A stretch of 64,000 nucleotides of DNA from Phytophthora sp. 'mugwort' (lineage: Eukaryota > Oomycota > Peronosporomycetes > Peronosporales > Peronosporaceae). The notes under the pieces are model-generated. The model was not told the DNA's origin, did not search any database, and worked only from the letters and a program-made list of their open reading frames with translations. The position numbers were made by a program, and so were the translations under genes. The first letter of the stretch is position 1. Each line of letters opens with the position of its first letter. This document shows, piece by piece, positions 934 through 61,680 of this stretch. The stretch spans positions 3,348,001-3,412,000 of the forward strand of contig JAUCEF010000012.1 in assembly GCA_033558025.1 (NCBI GenBank), given 5' to 3'.

Positions 934-1019
934 CTGTGATTGGCCAAGGGGGACAAAAGGCAACCGATGGACAGCCGAGGAGAAGTGTAAAAAAGAAGCA
1001 AGCGTTGTAGTTGGCCTCG

Positions 1020-1156
1020 CGGGGGAAAGGTGAACGCCCCCGGAGACCGCCCCGACGTCGCCCAGCAAGCCGGCCGACGACGGGAGTTCCAAAAGTGAGA
1101 GTGAAAAAGTTCGCTGACAAACAGCGAAAATCAGTTTTCACACTGATTAGAACAGA
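1020..1156 (-). ncRNA. U2 snRNA 3' fragment, junction of units 2 and 1
   Basis: All hairpins match the reference junction; the double 7-bp hairpin is at 1110-1148. The Sm site reads ACTTTTGG instead of ATTTTTGG, a T-to-C change shared only with the next junction. It would weaken Sm binding if the fragment were ever transcribed as an snRNA. Confidence 0.7.
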
Positions 1157-1308: not shown

Positions 1309-4300
1309 TTATCGCCGTGCCTCTGCCTGCGATGTGCGCCGCGGGGTCCCCCCAGATCCGCGCGACGCTCGCGAGGAATGTCCGCTTGCTTGGCGCTCGC
1401 GGTGACGTCGGCAGTGCCAGCCCCAGATGCGGTGGCTGGCACGAATGCAATGGCTCGACAGCTGGATGTCCAGCTGCCGAGACTCGCGCTTGTGGAGCTG
1501 CAGGTGCTCCGTGTAGGTCTTGAAGTTGCTGGGCTGCACCGAGCCCAGCGACCCGTACACGATGGCGGCGGTCTTAACCCGCCACCCCTTGAGCCGCAAT
1601 TCGGCCACGATCGGTTGGTACTTGAGTGTCTTGTAGTCGTGGCTGAACTGCAGCGAGGAGTGGCGGGCCCCGGCCGCCTGGTCTTCAAACGTGACCGCCA
1701 AGTCGGCGATCACCATCGTCTTGGCGGTCACGTTGCGCAGCACGATGTCCGGTCGCAGAGCTGCGCCTGTGTACTCGGGCACCGTCTGGTTCAGGCGCAG
1801 CTCCGTGGTCGACTTGGCGCGGTCCAGTGCGCCGCGGATCTTGGACCCGATCTGCTCCAAGGCGTCGTCGTGACACTGCCTGATGGCGTCCATGTTGGAC
1901 GCGCAGTGGTTAAGAACATGGGGCAGCGTCTCCGCCGAGGAGCAGGCCGGATCGCGGCAGTGGTGGTTGGCCCGAAGGCGCCTGCGCTTGAGCACCGAGT
2001 TGGTGTCGACTTGGTTGAGGCGGGCCTGGATGCCGAACCTGTGCTCCGCATCCGACAGGCCCGCCCCCGTCGCCACGAACTTCGCGCCGAGGCCGCCGTG
2101 GACACGCACTGTCTTGCCTTGGTCCACCATCCCCTTCCACCGGGTCTGGTGGCGGATCTTCATGTGCAACTTCACGTGCCGCAACACCGACTTGTGGTCG
2201 AGCCACTTGGTGTGGTGCGGCACGCGAAGGCCGAGCGTGTCCTGGCCGTCCGCGTCGTCGCGGTCCTCGAGGCGCAGGTTGTTGTTCAGCAGGATGCGCT
2301 GGACATCCACCCACAGCGAGCCGATGTCACCGTTGCGGCGGAGCACCTCTGCGTGGGGCGAGGCGGCGAGCTCGGAGTTCAAGAACAGGCGAGCGAGCTC
2401 GTCGTCACGCCCACGCCAGTGCTCCTCGTGTAGGCGGTAACGCTTGCGCGCTACCTGCCCCACCTGCGCCTTTGCCACTGCGATGATCGCCGGGTCCTTG
2501 GAGTGCAGCATCTGCCACGCGTGAGCCACCTGCAGCGCTTGGTGCATCTCCACCAGCGACTGCAGGCCCAGCCCGCCACCTGATGTCGGCGTGTAGAAGA
2601 ACTCGGTGGTGGCGGACTGGGGTAGACGCAGCAGATGCCGCAACCCACGGACCACGGCGCGGTCGAAGCCTTGTAGCTGGGACTGGAGCGGTCGCAGGTG
2701 GCGAAGCGCATACTCCACCTTGGGGTACACGTACGTCTTGAGAGCCTTCACCACCTGCCACGCCGCCAGTCCCGACTGCATCAGCGCCACCGCCTCCCGC
2801 TTGATCTGCTGAATCTTGGGCTCAAGCTGGAGGCGGTGCCGCACGTGGTCGAAGCCATCGCCCACCCCCAGGTACCGATAGCTGTCTTGGAGGCTGAGGG
2901 TGGCGATGATGTCGCCGTGGAGCTCCAGGCGCACGCTGTCGTCTCGGGTCGGGTTGCTGCGCGCGTTGGTTGTCACCGCCAGGCTGGCACATTTGGCTGG
3001 GTTCGCGCGCAGCCCGGTCCACTTGAGGAAGCGAGCGACAACGCCGTGGCACTTCCGAATGCCGGCGGCGCTGTCGCTGAAGACCTTCAGGTCGTCGGCG
3101 TATGCCGTGGCGCAAGGTCGTACACCCTCGGCCAACGGCACGCCAACGTCCTCGAGCTCCTCCAGGCGGCGTAGGAGCGGCACGAGTGCTGCAATAAACA
3201 GGAGGGGGCTGAGTGGGCAGCCTTGGTAGACCCCCACCTCCTGGCGCACCGGGTCCGTCGCTCCTCCAGCGGCGTTCATCACCACGAAGGCCGAGTCTTG
3301 GTAAATGTCTTGGCAGCGCGAAGTGAAGCCAGTGTTGACACCGAGGTCGCGGAGCACCCGCCACATCAAGTCCTGTGGCAGCGACCCGAAGGCGTTCCGA
3401 AGGTCGTACCACACTTGGTACAGCCTTCGGTGGCGGCGGCGGGTCTGGTCCAGGAGCGTGGTTGCCACGAAGTTGTGTTCGTGGCAACCATTGAAGGCCC
3501 TGAACCCCTTCTGCGAGATCGGCAGCAGGTTGTTCCTCTCTAGCCAGCGCGACAGCCGACGTGCCAACAGCCCGCTGTACAGCTTGTAGATAGTGGGCTG
3601 AAGGCAGATCGGCCTCCAGTTGGCCGGCTGCATCGGGTCGCCCTTCTTGTGGATGAGACGTACGATGCCCACCTTCCACAAGGCGGGCACGCGCCGATGC
3701 AGCCAGCAAAACTGGTACGCGGCGTGAAGGAGGGGCACAAGTTGGGCAGCGAAGCGACGGTAGACGTCGTAGCCGATACCGTCATGGCCAGGGCTGGATG
3801 TAACCGCCGCGCGCGTGAGCTGATCTTCCACTTCGTCCAGCGTGATCTCCTCCTCGAACGCGGTCGCCTCTGCTGTCGCCGCTTCAGAATTGGCCAGGGC
3901 ATCCCGAAATTCCTCACCGCCATCACCATCATAGTTGAAGTTGGTCCGTGGCGTGTTGGTGCCAGTGAAGTAGCGGTGGAGTTCCTCGCGGTCGATCGGG
4001 CAGGACTCGGGGTGCTCCTCCATCGCCGCTTCCGCCGACGTTCGCTTCATGATCTTTTCCACACACTTGGCCTCGTCCTTGGCGAATTCCTGGCGGAGCC
4101 GCTGCAGAGCCAACGCTGAGCGGATGCGGCCCACTCGGCGGCGAGCGTTGCGGACGGCCTTCTGGTCATCGGGTGTCGCGCGTTGCACCGCCTCCATGTT
4201 GTCGAGGGCCTCGTCGAGGCGGTGCTCGCGCTGTTCCCGTGTGACTCGTGGTGGTCGCCGACGCCTCCATCGACGCTGTTGATCTTGTTGTGGTCGGGTC

Positions 4301-7658: not shown

Positions 7659-7744
7659 CTGTGATTGGCCAAGGGGGACAAAAGGCAACCGATGGACAGC
7701 CGAGGAGAAGTGTAAAAAAGAAGCAAGCGTTGTAGTTGGCCTCG

Positions 7745-7881
7745 CGGGGGAAAGGTGAACGCCCCCGGAGACCGCCCCGACGTCGCCCAGCAAGCCGGCC
7801 GACGACGGGAGTTCCAAAAGTGAGAGTGAAAAAGTTCGCTGACAAACAGCGAAAATCAGTTTTCACACTGATTAGAACAGA
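7745..7881 (-). ncRNA. U2 snRNA 3' fragment, junction of units 3 and 2
   Basis: The stems are unchanged and the Sm site has the same ACTTTTGG form as the leftmost junction. The double hairpin lies at 7835-7873. Confidence 0.7.
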
Positions 7882-14377: not shown

Positions 14378-14463
14378 CTGTGATTGGCCAAGGGGGACAA
14401 AAGGCAACCGATGGACAGCCGAGGAGAAGTGTAAAAAAGAAGCAAGCGTTGTAGTTGGCCTCG

Positions 14464-14600
14464 CGGGGGAAAGGTGAACGCCCCCGGAGACCGCCCCGAC
14501 GTCGCCCAGCAAGCCGGCCGACGACGGGAGTTCCAAAAATGAGAGTGAAAAAGTTCGCTGACAAACAGCGAAAATCAGTTTTCACACTGATTAGAACAGA
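14464..14600 (-). ncRNA. U2 snRNA 3' fragment, junction of units 4 and 3
   Basis: The consensus Sm site ATTTTTGG is at 14533-14540 and all stems are intact. The element side of the junction has one private change (plus-strand AGATGTG instead of ATATGTG at 14601-14607), while the U2 side is unchanged. Confidence 0.72.
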
Positions 14601-21102: not shown

Positions 21103-21188
21103 CTGTGATTGGCCAAGGGGGACAAAAGGCAACCGATGGACAGCCGAGGAGAAGTGTAAAAAAGAAGCAAGCGTTGTAGTTGGCCTCG

Positions 21189-21325
21189 CGGGGGAAAGGT
21201 GAACGCCCCCGGAGACCGCCCCGACGTCGCCCAGCAAGCCGGCCGACGACGGGAGTTCCAAAAATGAGAGTGAAAAAGTTCGCTGACAAACAGCGAAAAT
21301 CAGTTTTCACACTGATTAGAACAGA
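21189..21325 (-). ncRNA. U2 snRNA 3' fragment, junction of units 5 and 4
   Basis: Identical by eye to the reference junction; the Sm site is at 21258-21265 and the double hairpin at 21279-21317. Confidence 0.72.
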
Positions 21326-26666: not shown

Positions 26667-27827
26667 CTACTTGGGGGGAAGCAGCAGCCGCAGCTGGGGA
26701 TGGGGAGGGCTTGCCGGAGTGCTGGGCACGACCTGGCCGGGCAGCACGCAAGCCGCCCTGCCGGGTGGGGATCCAGCACTCGCGAGGGGTTGTGGGCCTT
26801 GGGCAGCGGCGGCGTGGACATCCAGCGCGTCCTCGCCGTCGCTGGAGATGTCGCTGGGGCCGGGGGAGCCGCCCAGGGCACGCGCCGTGGCGGCTGCAAG
26901 TGCCTGTCCCCGCGCTACCCGGTCGGGCAGCCTGCCTGCCGCCCTGCCGGGTGGGGACAGCAAAGCGCGGGGGGTCCTGGGCGGCGGAGAGGCGAAGATG
27001 GGCTGGGGAGCGTCGGCAGCGTCGGCTCGGGGCTCGTGGAGGCCGGTGGCAGCCTCCGGCGTGGACTTGGGGGCGACGAAGAGTGCTTGCCCCGGCACGA
27101 CCCGATCGGGCAGCCTGCCGGTCGCCCTGCCGGGTCGTGCCACATCGCAGGGGGGAAACGAGGGGGGCCTGGCAGGCGGACGAGCGAGAGGAGCGTCTTG
27201 GCTCTCCGTAGGACCCGGGCCGGGGTCCAACGGAGGTCTTGGGGCTCCAGGAGAGCCAGCGGCAGCGCCGCCATCGTGGACGTCCATGGTGGCGGGCGAG
27301 GCGAGCGGCGAGAACCCCTGCGAGGCCTGAGCGGCCAGGGATTCTCCCATAGTGGGGGCAAGTGCTTGGGGCCCAGGCCCGTCCATGGGATGGCCCGGGG
27401 GCTCGAAGCTGGTCGCCGCCGTCGCGAAACGACGCGACGTTGAAGCCGCGAGGCTGGCTTCATCTTGGGCCCCAGAGGCCTCGGCCCGCGTCGCGGCTTG
27501 GCGTGCAATGGGCGCTGCGGGTCCTGAACCCGTGCCCGAAGTTGCAGCAGTTGAAACGCCGCCGGTGCCGAGCAGTGGCACCGCGCGTGGAGGGTCCGGC
27601 GGCTCGATTTCCGGCTCAGGCGAGCCCAAAACGGGGGCGGTAATGTGTAACCGAACCCCTAGCTCGCCAGAGCCGGGACTGGTGTACCCATCAGTCAGCC
27701 GCTCCGAACAGTCGCCGGATGACGCGCTGTAGAAAGACGCGTCACTGGCGAGGCTGGAGTGACTGGCCGTGGAGCACTCGCTGTCCGTAGACGGGGTGCG
27801 CTCCCTGATTGGCCAAAACAGACGCAT
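26667..27827 (-). pseudogene. Unit 5, N-terminal piece cut off by the shared frameshift (last shifted copy)
   Basis: The piece codes for 386 residues from the ATG at 27827 and stops at 26667. This is the rightmost copy with the four-G run; from unit 6 on the run has five Gs and the frame is continuous. The switch from broken to intact copies therefore lies between units 5 and 6. Confidence 0.75.
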
Positions 27828-27913
27828 CTGTGATTGGCCAAGGGGGACAAAAGGCAACCGATGGACAGCCGAGGAGAAGTGTAAAAAAGAAGCAAGCGTT
27901 GTAGTTGGCCTCG

Positions 27914-28050
27914 CGGGGGAAAGGTGAACGCCCCCGGAGACCGCCCCGACGTCGCCCAGCAAGCCGGCCGACGACGGGAGTTCCAAAAATGAGAGTGAAA
28001 AAGTTCGCTGACAAACAGCGAAAATCAGTTTTCACACTGATTAGAACAGA
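27914..28050 (-). ncRNA. 3' part of a U2 snRNA gene (branch-site half missing), reference junction between units 6 and 5
   Basis: Read on minus from 28050, the sequence starts TCTGTTCT, then an AATCAGT/ACTGATT hairpin of 7 bp (28030-28042 region, loop GTGAAA), then directly abutting it a TTCGCTG/CAGCGAA hairpin of 7 bp. The Sm site ATTTTTGG is at 27983-27990. A stem at 27945-27978 has CCCG and CGTCG arms with one T-T mismatch and a loop containing GCTTGC. A 6-bp stem CGGGGG/CCCCCG with an 11-nt loop is at 27914-27936. By hand I match 22 of 27 positions to the vertebrate U2 I remember from UCUGUUCU through stem IIa, with the same spacing, and 8 of 8 at the Sm site. U2 normally has GUAGUA just before UCUG; here the element's 3' UTR is there instead. 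The piece cannot act as U2 because the branch-site half is absent. Confidence 0.75.
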
Positions 28051-28202
28051 ATATGTGTTCCTATTTACCAGTTAGTAACCTCTCCGTAACTAAAAATGTA
28101 AGCTAAACTATGCATGTCACTAAAGGGAGGGTGCTTGTATCTTCCTGGGTTCTTGAAGGGCGGTTCCCTACCTGGGTAGTGCCCTGTCGGTCGATGACCA
28201 GC
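28051..28202 (-). other. 3' UTR of the element (reference unit 6)
   Basis: These 152 nt lie between the TAA and the U2 junction. The half next to the junction (28051-28110) is clearly AT-richer than the rest of the unit. There is no poly(A) or microsatellite tail; the UTR ends ...GGAACACATAT directly before the U2 TCTGTTCT. In R2-group elements the 3' UTR RNA is what the RT recognises for target-primed synthesis, so this is the likely recognition segment. The corresponding stretches in the other units start right after each U2-like fragment and end at each stop codon. Confidence 0.7.
28061..28077 (-). promoter_or_regulatory. Branch-point-like TACTAAC followed by a TAG acceptor in the 3' UTR
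   Basis: On minus the sequence reads TACTAAC (28077-28071) and TAG ends at 28061, 11 nt after the putative branch A. This is the arrangement of a short-distance spliceosomal 3' splice site. A possible donor CAG|GTAGGG sits upstream at 28171, which would give a 111-nt intron inside the 3' UTR. TACTAAC is also complementary to the U2 branch-site sequence that should flank the insertion point. It is present at every junction (for example plus-strand GTTAGTA at 1177-1183). Function is not shown. Confidence 0.35.
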
Positions 28203-31200
28203 TTATCGCCGTGCCTCTGCCTGCGATGTGCGCCGCGGGGTCCCCCCAGACCCGCGCGACGCTCGCGAGGAATGTCCGCTTGCTTGGCGCTCGCGGTGAC
28301 GTCGGCAGTGCCAGCCCCAGATGCGGTGGCTGGCACGAATGCAATGGCTCGACAGCTGGATGTCCAGCTGCCGAGACTCGCGCTTGTGGAGCTGCAGGTG
28401 CTCCGTGTAGGTCTTGAAGTTGCTGGGCTGCACCGAGCCCAGCGACCCGTACACGATGGCGGCGGTCTTAACCCGCCACCCCTTGAGCCGCAATTCGGCC
28501 ACGATCGGTTGGTACTTGAGTGTCTTGTAGTCGTGGCTGAACTGCAGCGAGGAGTGGCGGGCCCCGGCCGCCTGGTCTTCAAACGTGACCGCCAAGTCGG
28601 CGATCACCATCGTCTTGGCGGTCACGTTGCGCAGCACGATGTCCGGTCGCAGAGCTGCGCCTGTGTACTCGGGCACCGTCTGGTTCAGGCGCAGCTCCGT
28701 GGTCGACTTGGCGCGGTCCAGTGCGCCGCGGATCTTGGACCCGATCTGCTCCAAGGCGTCGTCGTGACGCTGCCTGATGGCGTCCATGTTGGACGCGCAG
28801 TGGTTAAGAACATGGGGCAGCGTCTCCGCCGAGGAGCAGGCCGGATCGCGGCAGTGGTGGTTGGCCCGAAGGCGCCTGCGCTTGAGCACCGAGTTGGTGT
28901 CGACTTGGTTGAGGCGGGCCTGGATGCCGAACCTGTGCTCCGCATCCGACAGGCCCGCCCCCGTCGCCACGAACTTCGCGCCGAGGCCGCCGTGGACACG
29001 CACTGTCTTGCCTTGGTCCACCATCCCCTTCCACCGGGTCTGGTGGCGGATCTTCATGTGCAACTTCACGTGCCGCAACACCGACTTGTGGTCGAGCCAC
29101 TTGGTGTGGTGCGGCACGCGAAGGCCGAGCGTGTCCTGGCCGTCCGCGTCGTCGCGGTCCTCGAGGCGCAGGTTGTTGTTCAGCAGGATGCGCTGGACAT
29201 CCACCCACAGCGAGCCGATGTCACCGTTGCGGCGGAGCACCTCTGCGTGGGGCGAGGCGGCGAGCTCGGAGTTCAAGAACAGGCGAGCGAGCTCGTCGTC
29301 ACGCCCACGCCAGTGCTCCTCGTGTAGGCGGTAACGCTTGCGCGCTACCTGCCCCACCTGCGCCTTTGCCACTGCGATGATCGCCGGGTCCTTGGAGTGC
29401 AGCATCTGCCACGCGTGAGCCACCTGCAGCGCTTGGTGCATCTCCACCAGCGACTGCAGGCCCAGCCCGCCACCTGATGTCGGCGTGTAGAAGAACTCGG
29501 TGGTGGCGGACTGGGGTAGACGCAGCAGATGCCGCAACCCACGGACCACGGCGCGGTCGAAGCCTTGTAGCTGGGACTGGAGCGGTCGCAGGTGGCGAAG
29601 CGCATACTCCACCTTGGGGTACACGTACGTCTTGAGAGCCTTCACCACCTGCCACGCCGCCAGTCCCGACTGCATCAGCGCCACCGCCTCCCGCTTGATC
29701 TGCTGGATCTTGGGCTCAAGCTGGAGGCGGTGCCGCACGTGGTCGAAGCCATCGCCCACCCCCAGGTACCGATAGCTGTCTTGGAGGCTGAGGGTGGCGA
29801 TGATGTCGCCGTGGAGCTCCAGGCGCACGCTGTCGTCTCGGGTCGGGTTGCTGCGCGCGTTGGTTGTCACCGCCAGGCTGGCACATTTGGCTGGGTTCGC
29901 GCGCAGCCCGGTCCACTTGAGGAAGCGAGCGACAACGCCGTGGCACTTCCGAATGCCGGCGGCGCTGTCGCTGAAGACCTTCAGGTCGTCGGCGTATGCC
30001 GTGGCGCAAGGTCGTACACCCTCGGCCAACGGCACGCCAACGTCCTCGAGCTCCTCCAGGCGGCGTAGGAGCGGCACGAGTGCTGCAATAAACAGGAGGG
30101 GGCTGAGTGGGCAGCCTTGGTAGACCCCCACCTCCTGGCGCACCGGGTCCGTCGCTCCTCCAGCGGCGTTCATCACCACGAAGGCCGAGTCTTGGTAAAT
30201 GTCTTGGCAGCGCGAAGTGAAGCCAGTGTTGACACCGAGGTCGCGGAGCACCCGCCACATCAAGTCCTGTGGCAGCGACCCGAAGGCGTTCCGAAGGTCG
30301 TACCACACTTGGTACAGCCTTCGGTGGCGGCGGCGGGTCTGGTCCAGGAGCGTGGTTGCCACGAAGTTGTGTTCGTGGCAACCATTGAAGGCCCTGAACC
30401 CCTTCTGCGAGATCGGCAGCAGGTTGTTCCTCTCTAGCCAGCGCGACAGCCGACGTGCCAACAGCCCGCTGTACAGCTTGTAGATAGTGGGCTGAAGGCA
30501 GATCGGCCTCCAGTTGGCCGGCTGCATCGGGTCGCCCTTCTTGTGGATGAGACGTACGATGCCCACCTTCCACAAGGCGGGCACGCGCCGATGCAGCCAG
30601 CAAAACTGGTACGCGGCGTGAAGGAGGGGCACAAGTTGGGCAGCGAAGCGACGGTAGACGTCGTAGCCGATACCGTCATGGCCAGGGCTGGATGTAACCG
30701 CCGCGCGCGTGAGCTGATCTTCCACTTCGTCCAGCGTGATCTCCTCCTCGAACGCGGTCGCCTCTGCTGTCGCCGCTTCAGAATTGGCCAGGGCATCCCG
30801 AAATTCCTCACCGCCATCACCATCATAGTTGAAGTTGGTCCGTGGCGTGTTGGTGCCAGTGAAGTAGCGGTGGAGTTCCTCGCGGTCGATCGGGCAGGAC
30901 TCGGGGTGCTCCTCCATCGCCGCTTCCGCCGACGTTCGCTTCATGATCTTTTCCACACACTTGGCCTCGTCCTTGGCGAATTCCTGGCGGAGCCGCTGCA
31001 GAGCCAACGCTGAGCGGATGCGGCCCACTCGGCGGCGAGCGTTGCGGACGGCCTTCTGGTCATCGGGTGTCGCGCGTTGCACCGCCTCCATGTTGTCGAG
31101 GGCCTCGTCGAGGCGGTGCTCGCGCTGTTCCCGTGTGACTCGTGGTGGTCGCCGACGCCTCCATCGACGCTGTTGATCTTGTTGTGGTCGGGTCGGCTGC

Positions 31201-34200
31201 TGGTTCGGTGGTCCAGCTGTGTGGGTTGGATCCGGTCGAGGTGGCGACGACTGCGTCGCAAAAGGCTGCAGCAGCTCGCGGATGCGATCGGGGATGGCGG
31301 CGATGTATCCTTCTCCCGTCGCCCAACTATCCGCATCCGTGATCCGGCTAGCCATGCTCGTGGCGAAGGTCTCCAGAGCCGCTGCTGCCGCGTCATGCTC
31401 ATCGTCCGTCAGCTGCCGCAGTCGAAGTCGAGGTTGCCGCGTGGGGGCCGAGTTGGAGCCAATAGGCAGAGTGGGGAACACCTCGCCCCCATCACGCGCA
31501 GCAATTTCGGCTTCGACGTCCATGTCAGCGGCTTCTGCATTGACGGTGGCGTGGGCATCGGGAAGTCGTCTAGCCACTGGAGGTGCTGGGTTCGGCGTGG
31601 GCGCTGTCGTCGGGGCGAAGCATGTCGCCATGTCGCCGTCGTGGGGGCCACACTCCATGCGCGTCCGGCATTGGTCCAGTGCCCTGTTGGCCAGGCGGTC
31701 AGCTTGGCCGTTGGCTTTGCGATCAATGTGCCGCAGCCTGTGCCAAGCAAGTCGTCGCAGCGCGTGTCGAACTCGGTTCCGCAGCCCTCGGAGCCGTCCA
31801 TTGGTGCACCCGAAGGAGCCCCGCACTTGCGCCAACACCAGGTTGCTGTCGCCCTCGATCAGCAGTCGGGAGGCGCCGTGGTGTAGCGCGCTCTGCACGC
31901 CGAGCAGCAGCGCCGTGTATTCGGCGGTGTTGTTCGTCTCGCTGCTTCTCGGCATGTAGTGCGAGCACGTCCACACCACAGCGCCACTTGGGTCGAAGAG
32001 TGCTGCACCGGCGCCGCCCGGGCCTGGGTTACGGCGGCAGGCGCCGTCGAAGCGCAGTACCCACGGCTGGAGGTCGTCCGAGCCGCTGTCAACGTCCATC
32101 GTGACCGTGACCGGAGTTTCAGCAGCTTCGGGTGGCACCGGTGCTGGCAGTGGTGCCACCTCTTGGAGCTGGCTTGGCGGTCTTGGTGCTCGGCGTGCCG
32201 CTCGGGTCAGTATCACTAGTGGGCGTGGGCCCCACCGAGTCGAAGTCCGGCTTGGGGCCCTCGCTGACTCGAGCGACATGCTGCTGGGAGGCGCTGTGGG
32301 CGAGGTGCCGGCGGTGGCCTCCAGTCTCGCGATGGCAGCAGCTCCGATTGCGCGTGGGCTTGGGCCCCATCTCGTGGTTCGCTGAGTCGGAGCTGCTGTC
32401 GGTGTAGGTCGTCGAGCTGTCGGGGCAGCAGTCGTTTGCTCGCCGGTCACCAGCCGAGCGATGGCCGCTGCTCCGACGGCTCGGTGTCGTGGCCCCCATC
32501 GCGTGGGTCTGGCCGTAGGCTGGGCAGAAGAGGCGTCCGGCATGTCCTCGTCCGCTGCGAGCTCGAGCATCAGGTCGTCCTCGGCGTCCTGCATCAGGGC
32601 GTCCAGGTCGACCGCAGGGCACGAGCTCGAGCTGTTGAGTCGGCGGCGCTTGCCACCGACACGAACTTCGGGGGGCGGAGACAGTGGGCACCGCACGGGG
32701 GGGACGTGTCGGTGCCCGTCTTGAACAGCAGCGGGAGGCATGGCGCTCTGTTGGGCGGCGGTGTCTGCCACCGCGATGTCGCTTGATGCGGCTGTCGCAG
32801 TGACAGGCACCGCCGCGGCGAGGGGCTTGGTAGGTCTTGGGGCCTCCTCGCCGCGGAGGGAACGAGCACGAGCTGTAGTCGTCGTTGGGGAGTCGCGTGC
32901 AGCAGCTTCGGCCGCGTAGGCGCTCTGCGCGCAAGCCTGGGCATGCTTCGTCGCTGCTGCACGCGACTTGAAGCCGATGCCGCACGTGCACCCGCTGTGG
33001 AAGTGGTCCACGAAGCGGGTGCCACGATGCGCTGTGCGTCGATGGACGACGAGCGCCGCAAGATCGCGGACGATGTGCGCGCACAACGCGCACTCGAAAG
33101 CAGCAGCGTTGTGCGCGTACACCGTCAGCACCGGGTCCTCGAGGCCGTTGGCCGGCCGAGGGTGGTAGATCGGAGGTCCCGGTACTTGAGCGTCCTCGCC
33201 GCACTCGTCATCTTCGTTGTCGCCCTTGGTCTCCTCGTCGTAGCGTCCGTCGCTGCTGAACTCGTCGCCGTACTTGGGCGCCATATGCGCGCGAGCCGTA
33301 GGTGCTTGGTCTTGTCGTGGCTCGGCGCGCACGTGGCGCTCCACGGCAGCGCGGTCAGCAGGGGGTGCTGCATCGTCAGCTGCGGCTGCGGCTACTTGGG
33401 GGGAAGCAGCAGCCGCAGCTGGGGATGGGGGAGGGCTTGCCGGAGTGCTGGGCACGACCTGGCCGGGCAGCACGCAAGCCGCCCTGCCGGGTGGGGATCC
33501 AGCACTCGCGAGGGGTTGTGGGCCTTGGGCAGCGGCGGCGTGGACATCCAGCGCGTCCTCGCCGTCGCTGGAGATGTCGCTGGGGCCGGGGGAGCCGCCC
33601 AGGGCACGCGCCGTGGCGGCTGTAAGTGCCTGTCCCCGCGCTACCCGGCCGGGCAGCCTGCCTGCCGCCCTGCCGGGTGGGGACAGCAAAGCGCGGGGGG
33701 TCCTGGGCGGCGGAGAGGCGAAGATGGGCTGGGGGGCGTCGGCAGCGTCGGCTCGGGGCTCGTGGAGGCCGGTGGCAGCCTCCGGCGTGGACTTGGGGGC
33801 GACGAAGAGTGCTTGCCCCGGCACGACCCGATCGGGCAGCCTGCCGGTCGCCCTGCCGGGTCGTGCCACATCGCAGGGGGGAAACGAGGGGGGCCTGGCA
33901 GGCGGACGAGCGAGAGGAGCGTCTTGGCTCTCCGTAGGACCCGGGCCGGGGTCCAACGGAGGTCTTGGGGCTCCAGGAGAGCCAGCGGCAGCGCCGCCAT
34001 CGTGGACGTCCATGGTGGCGGGCGAGGCGAGCGGCGAGAACCCCTGCGAGGCCTGAGCGGCCAGGGATTCTCCCATAGTGGGGGCAAGTGCTTGGGGCCC
34101 AGGCCCGTCCATGGGATGGCCCGGGGGCTCGAAGCTGGTCGCCGCCGTCGCGAAACGACGCGACGTTGAAGCCGCGAGGCTGGCTTCATCTTGGGCCCCA

Positions 34201-34553
34201 GAGGCCTCGGCCCGCGTCGCGGCTTGGCGTGCAATGGGCGCTGCGGGTCCTGAACCCGTGCCCGAAGTTGCAGCAGTTGAAACGCCGCCGGTGCCGAGCA
34301 GTGGCACCGCGCGTGGAGGGTCCGGCGGCTCGATTTCCGGCTCAGGCGAGCCCAAAACGGGGGCGGTAATGTGTAACCGAACCCCTAGCTCGCCAGAGCC
34401 GGGACTGGTGTACCCATCAGTCAGCCGCTCCGAACAGTCGCCGGATGACGCGCTGTAGAAAGACGCGTCACTGGCGAGGCTGGAGTGACTGGCCGTGGAG
34501 CACTCGCTGTCCGTAGACGGGGTGCGCTCCCTGATTGGCCAAAACAGACGCAT
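28203..34553 (-). CDS. Unit 6 retrotransposon polyprotein (Utopia-like), intact, 2,116 residues: zinc fingers, RNase H, RT, CCHC, RLE
   Basis: The protein copies its own RNA into DNA by target-primed reverse transcription. Residues count from the ATG at 34553, the first in frame; the open frame itself begins about 200 nt further upstream without an ATG. Residues 1-420 are Ser/Ala/Pro-rich with three PGRA peptide repeats (232, 293, 355). A C2H2 finger has C488, C491, H504 and H509; a C2HC finger has C522, C524, H537 and C541. TRWGP repeats start at 684, 727 and 772. RNase H spans about 829-960 (D836, E878, D902, H942, D952). RT spans about 1270-1600, with motif A D1419, QGCPLSP 1479-1485 and YADD 1520-1523. 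The CCHC knuckle is C1901, C1906, H1914, C1919. The RLE has D1971, D1986 and K2010..K2013-Y2014 and would nick the target. The RNase H resembles the plant/archaeal type (I.R..N..AD.LAN). The U2 target is inferred from the junctions. TAA is at 28203-28205. Variants here are LPGRVARG in the second PGRA repeat and DQCRTRM after RNase H. Confidence 0.93.
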   Translation of the reverse strand: MRLFWPIRERTPSTDSECSTASHSSLASDASFYSASSGDCSERLTDGYTSPGSGELGVRLHITAPVLGSPEPEIEPPDPPRAVPLLGTGGVSTAATSGTGSGPAAPIARQAATRAEASGAQDEASLAASTSRRFATAATSFEPPGHPMDGPGPQALAPTMGESLAAQASQGFSPLASPATMDVHDGGAAAGSPGAPRPPLDPGPGPTESQDAPLARPPARPPSFPPCDVARPGRATGRLPDRVVPGQALFVAPKSTPEAATGLHEPRADAADAPQPIFASPPPRTPRALLSPPGRAAGRLPGRVARGQALTAATARALGGSPGPSDISSDGEDALDVHAAAAQGPQPLASAGSPPGRAACVLPGQVVPSTPASPPPSPAAAAASPQVAAAAADDAAPPADRAAVERHVRAEPRQDQAPTARAHMAPKYGDEFSSDGRYDEETKGDNEDDECGEDAQVPGPPIYHPRPANGLEDPVLTVYAHNAAAFECALCAHIVRDLAALVVHRRTAHRGTRFVDHFHSGCTCGIGFKSRAAATKHAQACAQSAYAAEAAARDSPTTTTARARSLRGEEAPRPTKPLAAAVPVTATAASSDIAVADTAAQQSAMPPAAVQDGHRHVPPVRCPLSPPPEVRVGGKRRRLNSSSSCPAVDLDALMQDAEDDLMLELAADEDMPDASSAQPTARPTRWGPRHRAVGAAAIARLVTGEQTTAAPTARRPTPTAAPTQRTTRWGPSPRAIGAAAIARLEATAGTSPTAPPSSMSLESARAPSRTSTRWGPRPLVILTRAARRAPRPPSQLQEVAPLPAPVPPEAAETPVTVTMDVDSGSDDLQPWVLRFDGACRRNPGPGGAGAALFDPSGAVVWTCSHYMPRSSETNNTAEYTALLLGVQSALHHGASRLLIEGDSNLVLAQVRGSFGCTNGRLRGLRNRVRHALRRLAWHRLRHIDRKANGQADRLANRALDQCRTRMECGPHDGDMATCFAPTTAPTPNPAPPVARRLPDAHATVNAEAADMDVEAEIAARDGGEVFPTLPIGSNSAPTRQPRLRLRQLTDDEHDAAAAALETFATSMASRITDADSWATGEGYIAAIPDRIRELLQPFATQSSPPRPDPTHTAGPPNQQPTRPQQDQQRRWRRRRPPRVTREQREHRLDEALDNMEAVQRATPDDQKAVRNARRRVGRIRSALALQRLRQEFAKDEAKCVEKIMKRTSAEAAMEEHPESCPIDREELHRYFTGTNTPRTNFNYDGDGGEEFRDALANSEAATAEATAFEEEITLDEVEDQLTRAAVTSSPGHDGIGYDVYRRFAAQLVPLLHAAYQFCWLHRRVPALWKVGIVRLIHKKGDPMQPANWRPICLQPTIYKLYSGLLARRLSRWLERNNLLPISQKGFRAFNGCHEHNFVATTLLDQTRRRHRRLYQVWYDLRNAFGSLPQDLMWRVLRDLGVNTGFTSRCQDIYQDSAFVVMNAAGGATDPVRQEVGVYQGCPLSPLLFIAALVPLLRRLEELEDVGVPLAEGVRPCATAYADDLKVFSDSAAGIRKCHGVVARFLKWTGLRANPAKCASLAVTTNARSNPTRDDSVRLELHGDIIATLSLQDSYRYLGVGDGFDHVRHRLQLEPKIQQIKREAVALMQSGLAAWQVVKALKTYVYPKVEYALRHLRPLQSQLQGFDRAVVRGLRHLLRLPQSATTEFFYTPTSGGGLGLQSLVEMHQALQVAHAWQMLHSKDPAIIAVAKAQVGQVARKRYRLHEEHWRGRDDELARLFLNSELAASPHAEVLRRNGDIGSLWVDVQRILLNNNLRLEDRDDADGQDTLGLRVPHHTKWLDHKSVLRHVKLHMKIRHQTRWKGMVDQGKTVRVHGGLGAKFVATGAGLSDAEHRFGIQARLNQVDTNSVLKRRRLRANHHCRDPACSSAETLPHVLNHCASNMDAIRQRHDDALEQIGSKIRGALDRAKSTTELRLNQTVPEYTGAALRPDIVLRNVTAKTMVIADLAVTFEDQAAGARHSSLQFSHDYKTLKYQPIVAELRLKGWRVKTAAIVYGSLGSVQPSNFKTYTEHLQLHKRESRQLDIQLSSHCIRASHRIWGWHCRRHRERQASGHSSRASRGSGGTPRRTSQAEARR
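32190..32505 (-). repeat. Three TRWGP repeats between the zinc fingers and RNase H (reference unit 6)
   Basis: The protein reads TRWGPRHRAVGAAAIARL, then TRWGPSPRAIGAAAIARL, then TRWGPRPLVILTRAARR, starting at residues 684, 727 and 772 from the ATG at 34553. The first two are nearly identical and the third has diverged after TRWGP. This is an internal duplication in a basic linker; I recognise no known domain. A role in binding RNA or target DNA is possible given its position between zinc fingers and RNase H. Confidence 0.6.
33443..33507. repeat. GC-rich palindromic cassette A inside the coding region (reference unit 6)
   Basis: Perfect 9-bp inverted arms GAGTGCTGG (33443-33451) and CCAGCACTC (33499-33507) enclose a core with CGGGCAGC and GCCGCCCTGCCGGGT. 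On minus it encodes the third PGRA peptide repeat (PGRAACVLPGQVV). Counterparts in other units lie at the same distance from the U2-like fragment, for example 6548-6612 in unit 2. Confidence 0.7.
33630..33686. repeat. GC-rich palindromic cassette B inside the coding region (reference unit 6)
   Basis: The arms are CTGTCCCC (33630-33637) and GGGGACAG (33679-33686), extended by ACCCGG and CCGGGT after a 5-nt bulge. It has the same core as cassette A but different outer arms. It encodes the second PGRA peptide repeat in the same reading frame. In unit 2 it is at 6735-6791. Confidence 0.7.
33820..33867. repeat. GC-rich palindromic cassette C inside the coding region (reference unit 6)
   Basis: Perfect 11-bp arms GGCACGACCCG (33820-33830) and CGGGTCGTGCC (33857-33867) surround the shared core. 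It encodes the first PGRA repeat (PGRATGRLPDRVVPG). In units 9 and 10 one core G is A, giving LSDRVV. In unit 2 it is at 6925-6972. Confidence 0.7.
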
Positions 34554-34567
34554 CTGTGATTGGCCAA
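34532..34567 (-). promoter_or_regulatory. Paired CCAAT-type boxes around the first ATG (reference unit 6)
   Basis: An 11-bp direct repeat TGATTGGCCAA (plus strand) occurs at 34532-34542 and 34557-34567 with a 25-bp period, so minus reads TTGGCCAATCA twice. The first ATG (34551-34553) lies between them, in CAGATGCGTCTG. CCAATCA is the usual core of NF-Y-type CCAAT boxes, so this could be an internal promoter of the element. The pair recurs at the same place in every unit (912-922 and 937-947 in unit 1). If it is a promoter, the real start of translation may be a later ATG. Confidence 0.45.
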
Positions 34568-34639
34568 GGGGGACAAAAGGCAACCGATGGACAGCCGAGG
34601 AGAAGTGTAAAAAAGAAGCAAGCGTTGTAGTTGGCCTCG

Positions 34640-34776
34640 CGGGGGAAAGGTGAACGCCCCCGGAGACCGCCCCGACGTCGCCCAGCAAGCCGGCCGACGA
34701 CGGGAGTTCCAAAAATGAGAGTGAAAAAGTTCGCTGACAAACAGCGAAAATCAGTTTTCACACTGATTAGAACAGA
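34640..34776 (-). ncRNA. U2 snRNA 3' fragment, junction of units 7 and 6
   Basis: Identical by eye to the reference; the Sm site is at 34709-34716. An in-frame TGA for the unit 6 polyprotein lies at 34758-34760, inside stem IIa. From there leftwards the U2-like fragment is open in frame with the polyprotein. Confidence 0.72.
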
Positions 34777-41279: not shown

Positions 41280-41365
41280 CTGTGATTGGCCAAGGGGGAC
41301 AAAAGGCAACCGATGGACAGCCGAGGAGAAGTGTAAAAAAGAAGCAAGCGTTGTAGTTGGCCTCG

Positions 41366-41502
41366 CGGGGGAAAGGTGAACGCCCCCGGAGACCGCCCCG
41401 ACGTCGCCCAGCAAGCCGGCCGACGACGGGAGTTCCAAAAATGAGAGTGAAAAAGTTCGCTGACAAACAGCGAAAATCAGTTTTCACACTGATTAGAACA
41501 GA
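41366..41502 (-). ncRNA. U2 snRNA 3' fragment, junction of units 8 and 7
   Basis: Identical by eye to the reference; the Sm site is at 41435-41442 and the double hairpin at 41456-41494. Confidence 0.72.
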
Positions 41503-48005: not shown

Positions 48006-48091
48006 CTGTGATTGGCCAAGGGGGACAAAAGGCAACCGATGGACAGCCGAGGAGAAGTGTAAAAAAGAAGCAAGCGTTGTAGTTGGCCTCG

Positions 48092-48228
48092 CGGGGGAAA
48101 GGTGAACGCCCCCGGAGACCGCCCCGACGTCGCCCAGCAAGCCGGCCGACGACGGGAGTTCCAAAAATGAGAGTGAAAAAGTTCGCTGACAAACAGCGAA
48201 AATCAGTTTTCACACTGATTAGAACAGA
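48092..48228 (-). ncRNA. U2 snRNA 3' fragment, junction of units 9 and 8
   Basis: Identical by eye to the reference; the Sm site is at 48161-48168 and the double hairpin at 48182-48220. Confidence 0.72.
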
Positions 48229-54731: not shown

Positions 54732-54817
54732 CTGTGATTGGCCAAGGGGGACAAAAGGCAACCGATGGACAGCCGAGGAGAAGTGTAAAAAAGAAGCAAG
54801 CGTTGTAGTTGGCCTCG

Positions 54818-54954
54818 CGGGGGAAAGGTGAACGCCCCCGGAGACCGCCCCGACGTCGCCCAGCAAGCCGGCCGACGACGGGAGTTCCAAAAATGAGAGT
54901 GAAAAAGTTCGCTGACAAACAGCGAAAATCAGTTTTCACACTGATTAGAACAGA
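54818..54954 (-). ncRNA. U2 snRNA 3' fragment, junction of units 10 and 9
   Basis: Identical by eye to the reference; the Sm site is at 54887-54894 and the double hairpin at 54908-54946. Confidence 0.72.
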
Positions 54955-61457: not shown

Positions 61458-61543
61458 CTGTGATTGGCCAAGGGGGACAAAAGGCAACCGATGGACAGCC
61501 GAGGAGAAGTGTAAAAAAGAAGCAAGCGTTGTAGTTGGCCTCG

Positions 61544-61680
61544 CGGGGGAAAGGTGAACGCCCCCGGAGACCGCCCCGACGTCGCCCAGCAAGCCGGCCG
61601 ACGACGGGAGTTCCAAAAATGAGAGTGAAAAAGTTCGCTGACAAACAGCGAAAATCAGTTTTCACACTGATTAGAACAGA
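61544..61680 (-). ncRNA. U2 snRNA 3' fragment, junction of units 11 and 10
   Basis: Identical by eye to the reference; the Sm site is at 61613-61620 and the double hairpin at 61634-61672. Confidence 0.72.

Follow-up and report, generated by a model that had tools for sequence, protein, structure and literature searches.

Tandem Utopia Retrotransposons Behind Intact U2 snRNA Genes in a Phytophthora Genome and Their Possible Growth at the Head of the Array

How can a retrotransposon that inserts only into the U2 snRNA gene accumulate in long arrays, and what happens to the gene that it interrupts? The question is raised by the window analyzed here, that is, the whole stretch of 64,000 nt at C12:3348001-3412000 of an 86-Mb assembly, in which the 3′ half of a U2 gene recurs behind every element. 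Part of the answer is already in the literature. The passages on U2 in Kojima and Jurka 2015 (PMC4640811) describe disrupted U2 genes in three Phytophthora species, all without the first 38 bp and adjoining the 3′ untranslated regions (UTRs) of Utopia elements; the legend of S2 Fig mentions tandem arrays of Utopia and U2, and intact U2 genes upstream of Utopia copies are reported there without explanation. The half-U2 junction, the missing nt 1–38, the upstream intact U2 and the tandem arrays are thus known since 2015, and the original prediction, which took the half-target at every junction as new, was mistaken in this respect. Two points of the same passages bear on the present locus: the fate of nt 1–38 was left unsettled, with deletion and duplication both considered, and it was regarded as surprising that several lineages of Utopia persist on some ten intact U2 genes. 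The window covers the central part of an array in which copies of a U2-targeting retrotransposon with a restriction-like endonuclease (RLE), the oomycete Utopia, stand head to tail directly behind one of the two intact U2 genes found in the genome.

The U2 Junctions and the Element

The covariance model of U2 (RF00004, gathering threshold of 46 bits) matched the minus strand of the window ten times and its plus strand not at all, with scores of 73.1–76.6 bits and E values of at most 1.7e-12. At all ten junctions, U2 from nt 39 on directly abuts the 3′ UTR of the element, exactly as had been predicted. The coordinates are given in table 1, with the junction at 27899–28202 as the copy of reference; its U2 half begins with nt 39 (TCTGTTCT) at 28050. 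The model nominally aligns positions 1–192 at this copy, but what it places against nt 1–38 of U2 is, as we read the alignment, Utopia 3′ UTR. The absent nt 1–38 include the branch-site-binding sequence GTAGTA at nt 33–38. The retained half comprises stems IIa and IIb, the Sm site and stems III and IV. Each unit is ordered as U2 3′ part, leader, ORF and 3′ UTR, and the units follow each other with a period of 6725–6726 nt, with a single unit of 6719 nt.

Table 1. Features of the window (positions of the 64,000-nt stretch)
Feature	Position	Strand	Remarks
Utopia unit 3′ UTR, ending exactly at the U2 junction	28051..28202	-	Between ORF stop (28203) and U2 nt 39
U2 snRNA gene nt 39 to ~190, nt 1–38 absent	27899..28050	-	RF00004, 76.0 bits; no difference from the intact U2 genes over the first 150 nt
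71-nt leader, U2 3′ end to start codon of next element	27828..27898	-	Leader and ATG exact in 33/37 array copies
Utopia ORF, 2116 aa, conserved ATG at 34553	28203..34553	-	Pfam RVT_3 and RVT_1; motifs by pattern/alignment; start region common to other oomycete relatives
Full repeat unit of 6726 nt, from U2 nt 39 up to the base preceding the next U2 nt 39	28051..34776	-	
U2 3′ part; of the ten copies, the one closest to the head	61529..61680	-	RF00004
U2 3′ part	54803..54954	-	RF00004
U2 3′ part	48077..48228	-	RF00004
U2 3′ part	41351..41502	-	RF00004
U2 3′ part	34625..34776	-	RF00004
U2 3′ part	21174..21325	-	RF00004
U2 3′ part; preceding 3′ UTR ends ATCT, not ATAT	14449..14600	-	RF00004
U2 3′ part; 1 difference from the intact gene	7730..7881	-	RF00004
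U2 3′ part, toward the tail; 1 difference from the intact gene	1005..1156	-	RF00004

The ORF of 2116 codons encodes, in this order, a C2H2-like finger (pattern at residue 488), an RNase H (D-E-D-R-D), a reverse transcriptase (RT), a CCHC motif and a PD..D/K restriction-like endonuclease. The RNase H is located upstream of the RT, with RVT_3 at 888–1011 and RVT_1 at 1389–1652 of the 2169-aa frame. Among 11 aligned proteins D889, E931, R998 and D1005 are invariant and D955 nearly so; we read these residues as the five putative catalytic positions of the RNase H. The CCHC (1901) and PD..D (1970 of the 2116-aa protein) were located by pattern and fall in columns conserved in the alignment, the endonuclease being a predicted one.

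The ATG at 34553 is supported as the start by the similar first residues of proteins from several oomycete genera. In detail, among 11 of the 12 proteins chosen for this comparison, those of Phytophthora ramorum, P. citrophthora, Peronospora matthiolae and Globisporangium splendens start alike (MRFFWPIRER and variants). In three P. ramorum proteins, 30–31 of the 35 residues at the N terminus agree; the value in the RT stretch is 55%. Such conservation was rejected as a general feature, since it exceeds that of the RT for these three and for P0015, whereas P0007, P0009, P0017, P0020 and P0028 show no clear excess.

The best protein relative is a metagenome protein with 76% identity, the named close relatives are from oomycetes, and R2 is the leading match among solved structures. 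One scan each of viral contigs and of genome contigs with the 11-protein alignment found no relative. By its protein features and its insertion site the element has the characters of the oomycete Utopia as given in PMC4640811, and the predicted Utopia-type RLE element is supported. In the G. splendens gene model (P0015), what looks like the C-terminal end of a Utopia protein is followed by the beginning of a second one, a hint that head-to-tail copies occur outside Phytophthora as well. The porphobilinogen deaminase of the host, which is at most 92% identical to proteins of named species, places it most likely in the Peronosporaceae.

U2 Genes and Utopia Copies Across the Genome

All counts of the genome-wide searches are lower bounds. 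RF00004 gave at least 38 matches, namely two intact genes (C12:3422981-3423170 and C13:2042948-2043137, 144.9 bits), 35 halves behind Utopia 3′ ends and one U2 5′ fragment on C16 scoring below the cut-off of the family. The Utopia 3′ UTR was matched 37 times; the 35 matches that reach the terminus all continue into U2 nt 39, the 3′ flank expected of an oomycete Utopia, and the remaining two are internal fragments. The intact genes match the halves from UCUGUUCU on, and the copy of reference scores well above the family threshold, so that both checks of the original prediction agree with it. When 150 nt of 37 copies (the 35 junction halves, the intact gene of C13 and that of C12 itself) were compared with the intact C12 gene, 31 showed no difference, four showed one, one showed two and one showed five.

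The 5′ end of U2 is distributed differently. Nucleotides 1–31, with up to three mismatches, were located at three places in the genome, that is, the two intact genes and the unlinked C16 fragment, and this search found no U2 5′ fragment before any unit. The prediction that the junctions are the product of target-primed reverse transcription (TPRT) is therefore only partly sustained: the 3′ junction is fixed at U2 nt 38/39 as expected, but simple TPRT leaves an upstream U2 5′ fragment. Genome-wide RF00004 and DNA searches found no U2 gene without Utopia behind it. A number as low as two U2 genes is plausible, because snRNA copies are few overall, with at least two U1, at least three U5 and at least one U4 matches.

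Two observations on C16 concern isolated pieces of these sequences. At C16:1324366-1324400 (minus strand), U2 nt 1–35 with one extra A in front are flanked by a 15-bp direct duplication, as judged by eye; this looks like an RNA-templated insertion of the U2 5′ end alone, the portion which is absent at the Utopia junctions. At C16:1162475-1162630 (minus strand), a relic found by DNA search only consists of about 16–20 nt from the 3′ end of Utopia and, directly adjoining, U2 nt 39 to ~180; 11 nt have been lost from it, and a leader does not follow.

Both intact U2 genes stand at the 5′ head of a Utopia array. At both heads, U2 nt 1–38 are followed by nt 39 on, the leader and the first ORF, and from nt 39 through the leader both are identical to the copy of reference letter for letter. 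Since intact U2 passes into the first unit in this way, each U2 half has two roles, as the remnant that trails one element and as leader for the element that follows. A Utopia 3′ UTR precedes 35 of the 37 array copies and U2 nt 1–38 the other two. Of the leaders that are not exact, two in C13 carry one substitution and one at the tail of C12 lacks one T, and an older copy (C12x) has a longer leader with ATC replacing ATG; the start codon is kept in 36 of 37. In all 37 copies the alignment reaches unit position 451, so none of the elements is 5′-truncated. C12x had raised the idea that the leader and the end of the U2 half are under special constraint; it was dropped on account of three changes in this part of the old copy C12:3342431.

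Upstream of the two heads, 11.8 and 9.9 kb were compared and gave no blastn match at 1e-8, which makes simple allelism of the two arrays unlikely, even though they have older tail sequence in common at 94–97%. About 55 nt upstream of both U2 heads a GTACGTRNGG-like element was seen by eye and without an estimate of chance. It also occurs at both U1 genes (identical upstream) and at the one U5 gene of three that was looked at, is weaker at U4, and was not seen by eye at the C16 fragment; it is a possible candidate for an oomycete snRNA promoter element. No 3′ box common to the leader and the flanks of one U1, one U5 and the U4 gene was found with four settings. Similarly, no HDV-like ribozyme was detected (no Rfam match up to an E value of 10 in 27300–28400), and the region near the 5′ end of the element matched no described ribozyme family.

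The C12 array has 12 complete units and the C13 array has six units of 2953 nt followed by 15 longer ones, numbers which the assembly may have miscounted where identical 6.7-kb units follow each other. Among the listed matches of the RT search (at least 141 matches, with 145 of 227 candidates scored), those above 40% identity lie only at C12:3.31-3.42 and 3.73-3.75 Mb and at C13:1.52-1.53 and 2.04-2.16 Mb; the others listed are at most 40% identical and resemble other retroelements. One Utopia unit is split between C13:2163827 and C13:1530546 (unit positions 3163 and 3165), 0.63 Mb apart and in opposite orientation, apparently by an inversion breakpoint which cut the C13 array inside a further unit. 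The tail of C12, and C13 past the inversion, pass into an older Utopia family. The first 0.9–1.5 kb of this family are 90–99% like the family of the window in matching blocks, and the blocks that match farther on are only ~73–92% like it, suggesting that 5′ regions may have been exchanged between the two.

Divergence Along the Two Arrays

In the C12 array, differences from the head unit increase from head to tail (0, 1, 1, 1, 2, 10, 10, 12, 18, 17, 15, 16; Spearman 0.91, the second unit being compared without 2 kb). The five head units differ among themselves by 0–2 sites over 6.7 kb and later units by 10–18 from the head unit. The frame of 2184 codons is open in the seven units nearest the head and interrupted in the five nearest the tail (n = 12). 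Two tail units have one differing site and a common broken frame, and this pair looks like a local duplication.

The C13 array has 22 U2 copies, and over 560 nt no difference exists among the 13 closest to the head. Five of the remaining nine differ by 1–3 sites from the modal sequence, and four of these are located in the last five of the 22. The 1300-nt 3′ windows have their largest differences in the last two units (8 and 7), and four of the six short head units are one site off the modal sequence. The frames are not graded: the 15 longer units consist of 11 open (2184 or 2123 codons) and four interrupted ones in mixed order. The full-length comparison in C13 covers six of these 15. Variants common to the C12 and C13 arrays also occur.

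The six consecutive 2953-nt units at the head of C13 (C13:2042986-2060703) have a single internal deletion (575|4349). An origin by splicing was rejected, as the deleted stretch, as read, is without GT-AG ends. With deleted units at the head of C13, the head position is no guarantee of a working copy. These units resemble the R2 SIDEs described in the relevant passages of PMC3414825 in keeping both ends with the middle lost, but differ from them in being six in a row, with the same deletion and at the head of an array.

Growth of the Arrays and Its Alternatives

It is fairly probable that the arrays grow by insertion into the head U2 gene, which is left whole, by one route or another. The route that we favor, though with reservation, is head insertion in which U2 sequence carried by the element RNA restores the gene. 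New copies would insert at nt 38/39 of the intact head gene, the incoming DNA would bring or restore U2 nt 39 to the 3′ end together with the leader, and the previous copy would shift one unit down and decay. The element RNA would be a read-through product of the U2 promoter with U2, leader, ORF and 3′ UTR, and the cDNA would end in U2 sequence able to pair with the upstream target. Growth by retrotransposition, a U2-initiated RNA and the pairing step are what we infer from the layout of the arrays. The RNA-borne route is favored by the short leader, the lack of 5′ truncation and the co-transcripts known as precedents from R2 and R1. The U2 gene would be destroyed if a truncated copy were inserted, and so this lack fits the model of head insertion. 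The negative ribozyme search tells against the RNA-borne route, and the internally deleted head units and ungraded frames of C13 tell against growth at the head.

The main alternative is amplification of DNA, in which one old insertion was multiplied as a unit by unequal exchange or similar recombination and U2 is whole merely as the fixed left edge. We regard this as rather unlikely for the arrays in general, but several observations agree with it: the near identity of the units, the deletion common to six neighboring short units (which crossing-over would also give), the C12 tail pair with its single difference and shared broken frame, the variants shared by C12 and C13, and the mixture of open and broken frames in C13. 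Crossing-over probably contributes somewhere, as in the C12 tail pair and the six short C13 units. On the contrary, amplification is expected to homogenize the middle and to leave both edges diverged, whereas in both arrays few parts are as uniform as the head edge. A toy simulation points in the same direction. With 300 runs per setting, no gene conversion or selection, rates of our own choice and C12 alone for comparison, a gradient like that of C12 appeared in 1.0, 0.0 and 0.6% of the crossing-over runs (293, 282 and 180 of which were within the chosen divergence range) versus 23.7 and 16.1% of the head-insertion runs (299 and 292 within range), with a mean pairwise divergence of 14–31 in the simulated runs against 11 observed.

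Insertion at the head could also leave the gene whole through a very long target-site duplication, if the top strand were cut downstream of U2 and fill-in duplicated nt 39 to the 3′ end and part of the leader. The same layout would result, the reptile Utopia is described in PMC4640811 with duplications of 20 bp, and R9 is reported with an exceptionally long one. C12x is also consistent with it, since unit positions 72–207 are unchanged there and the sequence then becomes diverged and different in length, as a 5′ element boundary might be. Against it, the old copy C12:3342431 has three changes inside these same positions. A duplication of roughly 200 bp would be needed, just ~17 nt would be left between the start of the element and the start codon, and 5′-truncated copies should be tolerated, yet there are none among the 37. 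We hold this route to be distinctly improbable. Hardly credible is the deletion model, among the possibilities proposed in PMC4640811, by which each insertion removes nt 1–38 and the upstream sequence of a gene in a pre-existing U2 array and the upstream intact U2 is a neighboring gene. Unless units were amplified later, it needs about 35 deletions that end at the same base after the neighboring U2; the join of U2 to the leader is present in all 37 copies, and the failure of the genome-wide searches to find a U2 gene free of Utopia also speaks against it.

Compared with other site-specific elements, the arrays combine familiar and distinct characters. They share with Phytophthora Utopia (PMC4640811) the RNase H upstream of the RT, the RLE, the insertion after U2 nt 38, the missing nt 1–38, the tandem U2 arrays and the intact U2 upstream. 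Relative to the description in the text of that paper, two long arrays are here resolved, both intact U2 genes are found at their heads, and the gradient of divergence and the U2 3′ part as leader of the ORF are added. In the R1 arrays of Drosophila rDNA, as presented in the passages concerned of PMC2718515, tandem copies of a site-specific non-LTR element are likewise separated by a piece of the target, and repeated insertion 5′ of a resident copy was proposed. The spacer of R1 is a 14-bp duplication of a multicopy gene, in contrast to ~150 nt of a two-copy gene here, with the gene whole; the separator, U2 plus leader, is thus other than the short target-site duplication of an R1-type array. 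The R2 co-transcripts in the corresponding part of PMC3774820 carry 28S at the 5′ end of the RNA, and uniform 5′ junctions were postulated to result from pairing of this sequence with the target. R2 uses an HDV-like ribozyme, and its RNA carries at most 36 nt of 28S, whereas the present element has no ribozyme match and the proposed U2 part would be far longer. A 2026 survey of R2 (PMC13188248) mentions the U2 specificity of Utopia, in passages from which oomycete arrays are absent. Among the literature titles searched, none deals with head-directed growth of such arrays, in a coverage that was partial and had most subscription journals and all bioRxiv preprints outside it.

The arrays suggest an answer to the puzzle of 2015, namely insertions that leave the U2 gene whole. 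If true, this would be an element whose damage to the target is undone by its own insertion. More speculatively, and with considerable doubt, Utopia may be fused to the two U2 genes as its growth point, with a U2–Utopia read-through RNA made from the U2 promoter, a whole U2 gene rebuilt at each insertion at nt 38/39, expression of the gene-adjacent copy only, and displacement and decay of the older ones. Through such a fusion, if real, an element confined to one target site could survive on a pair of essential genes while leaving both undisrupted.
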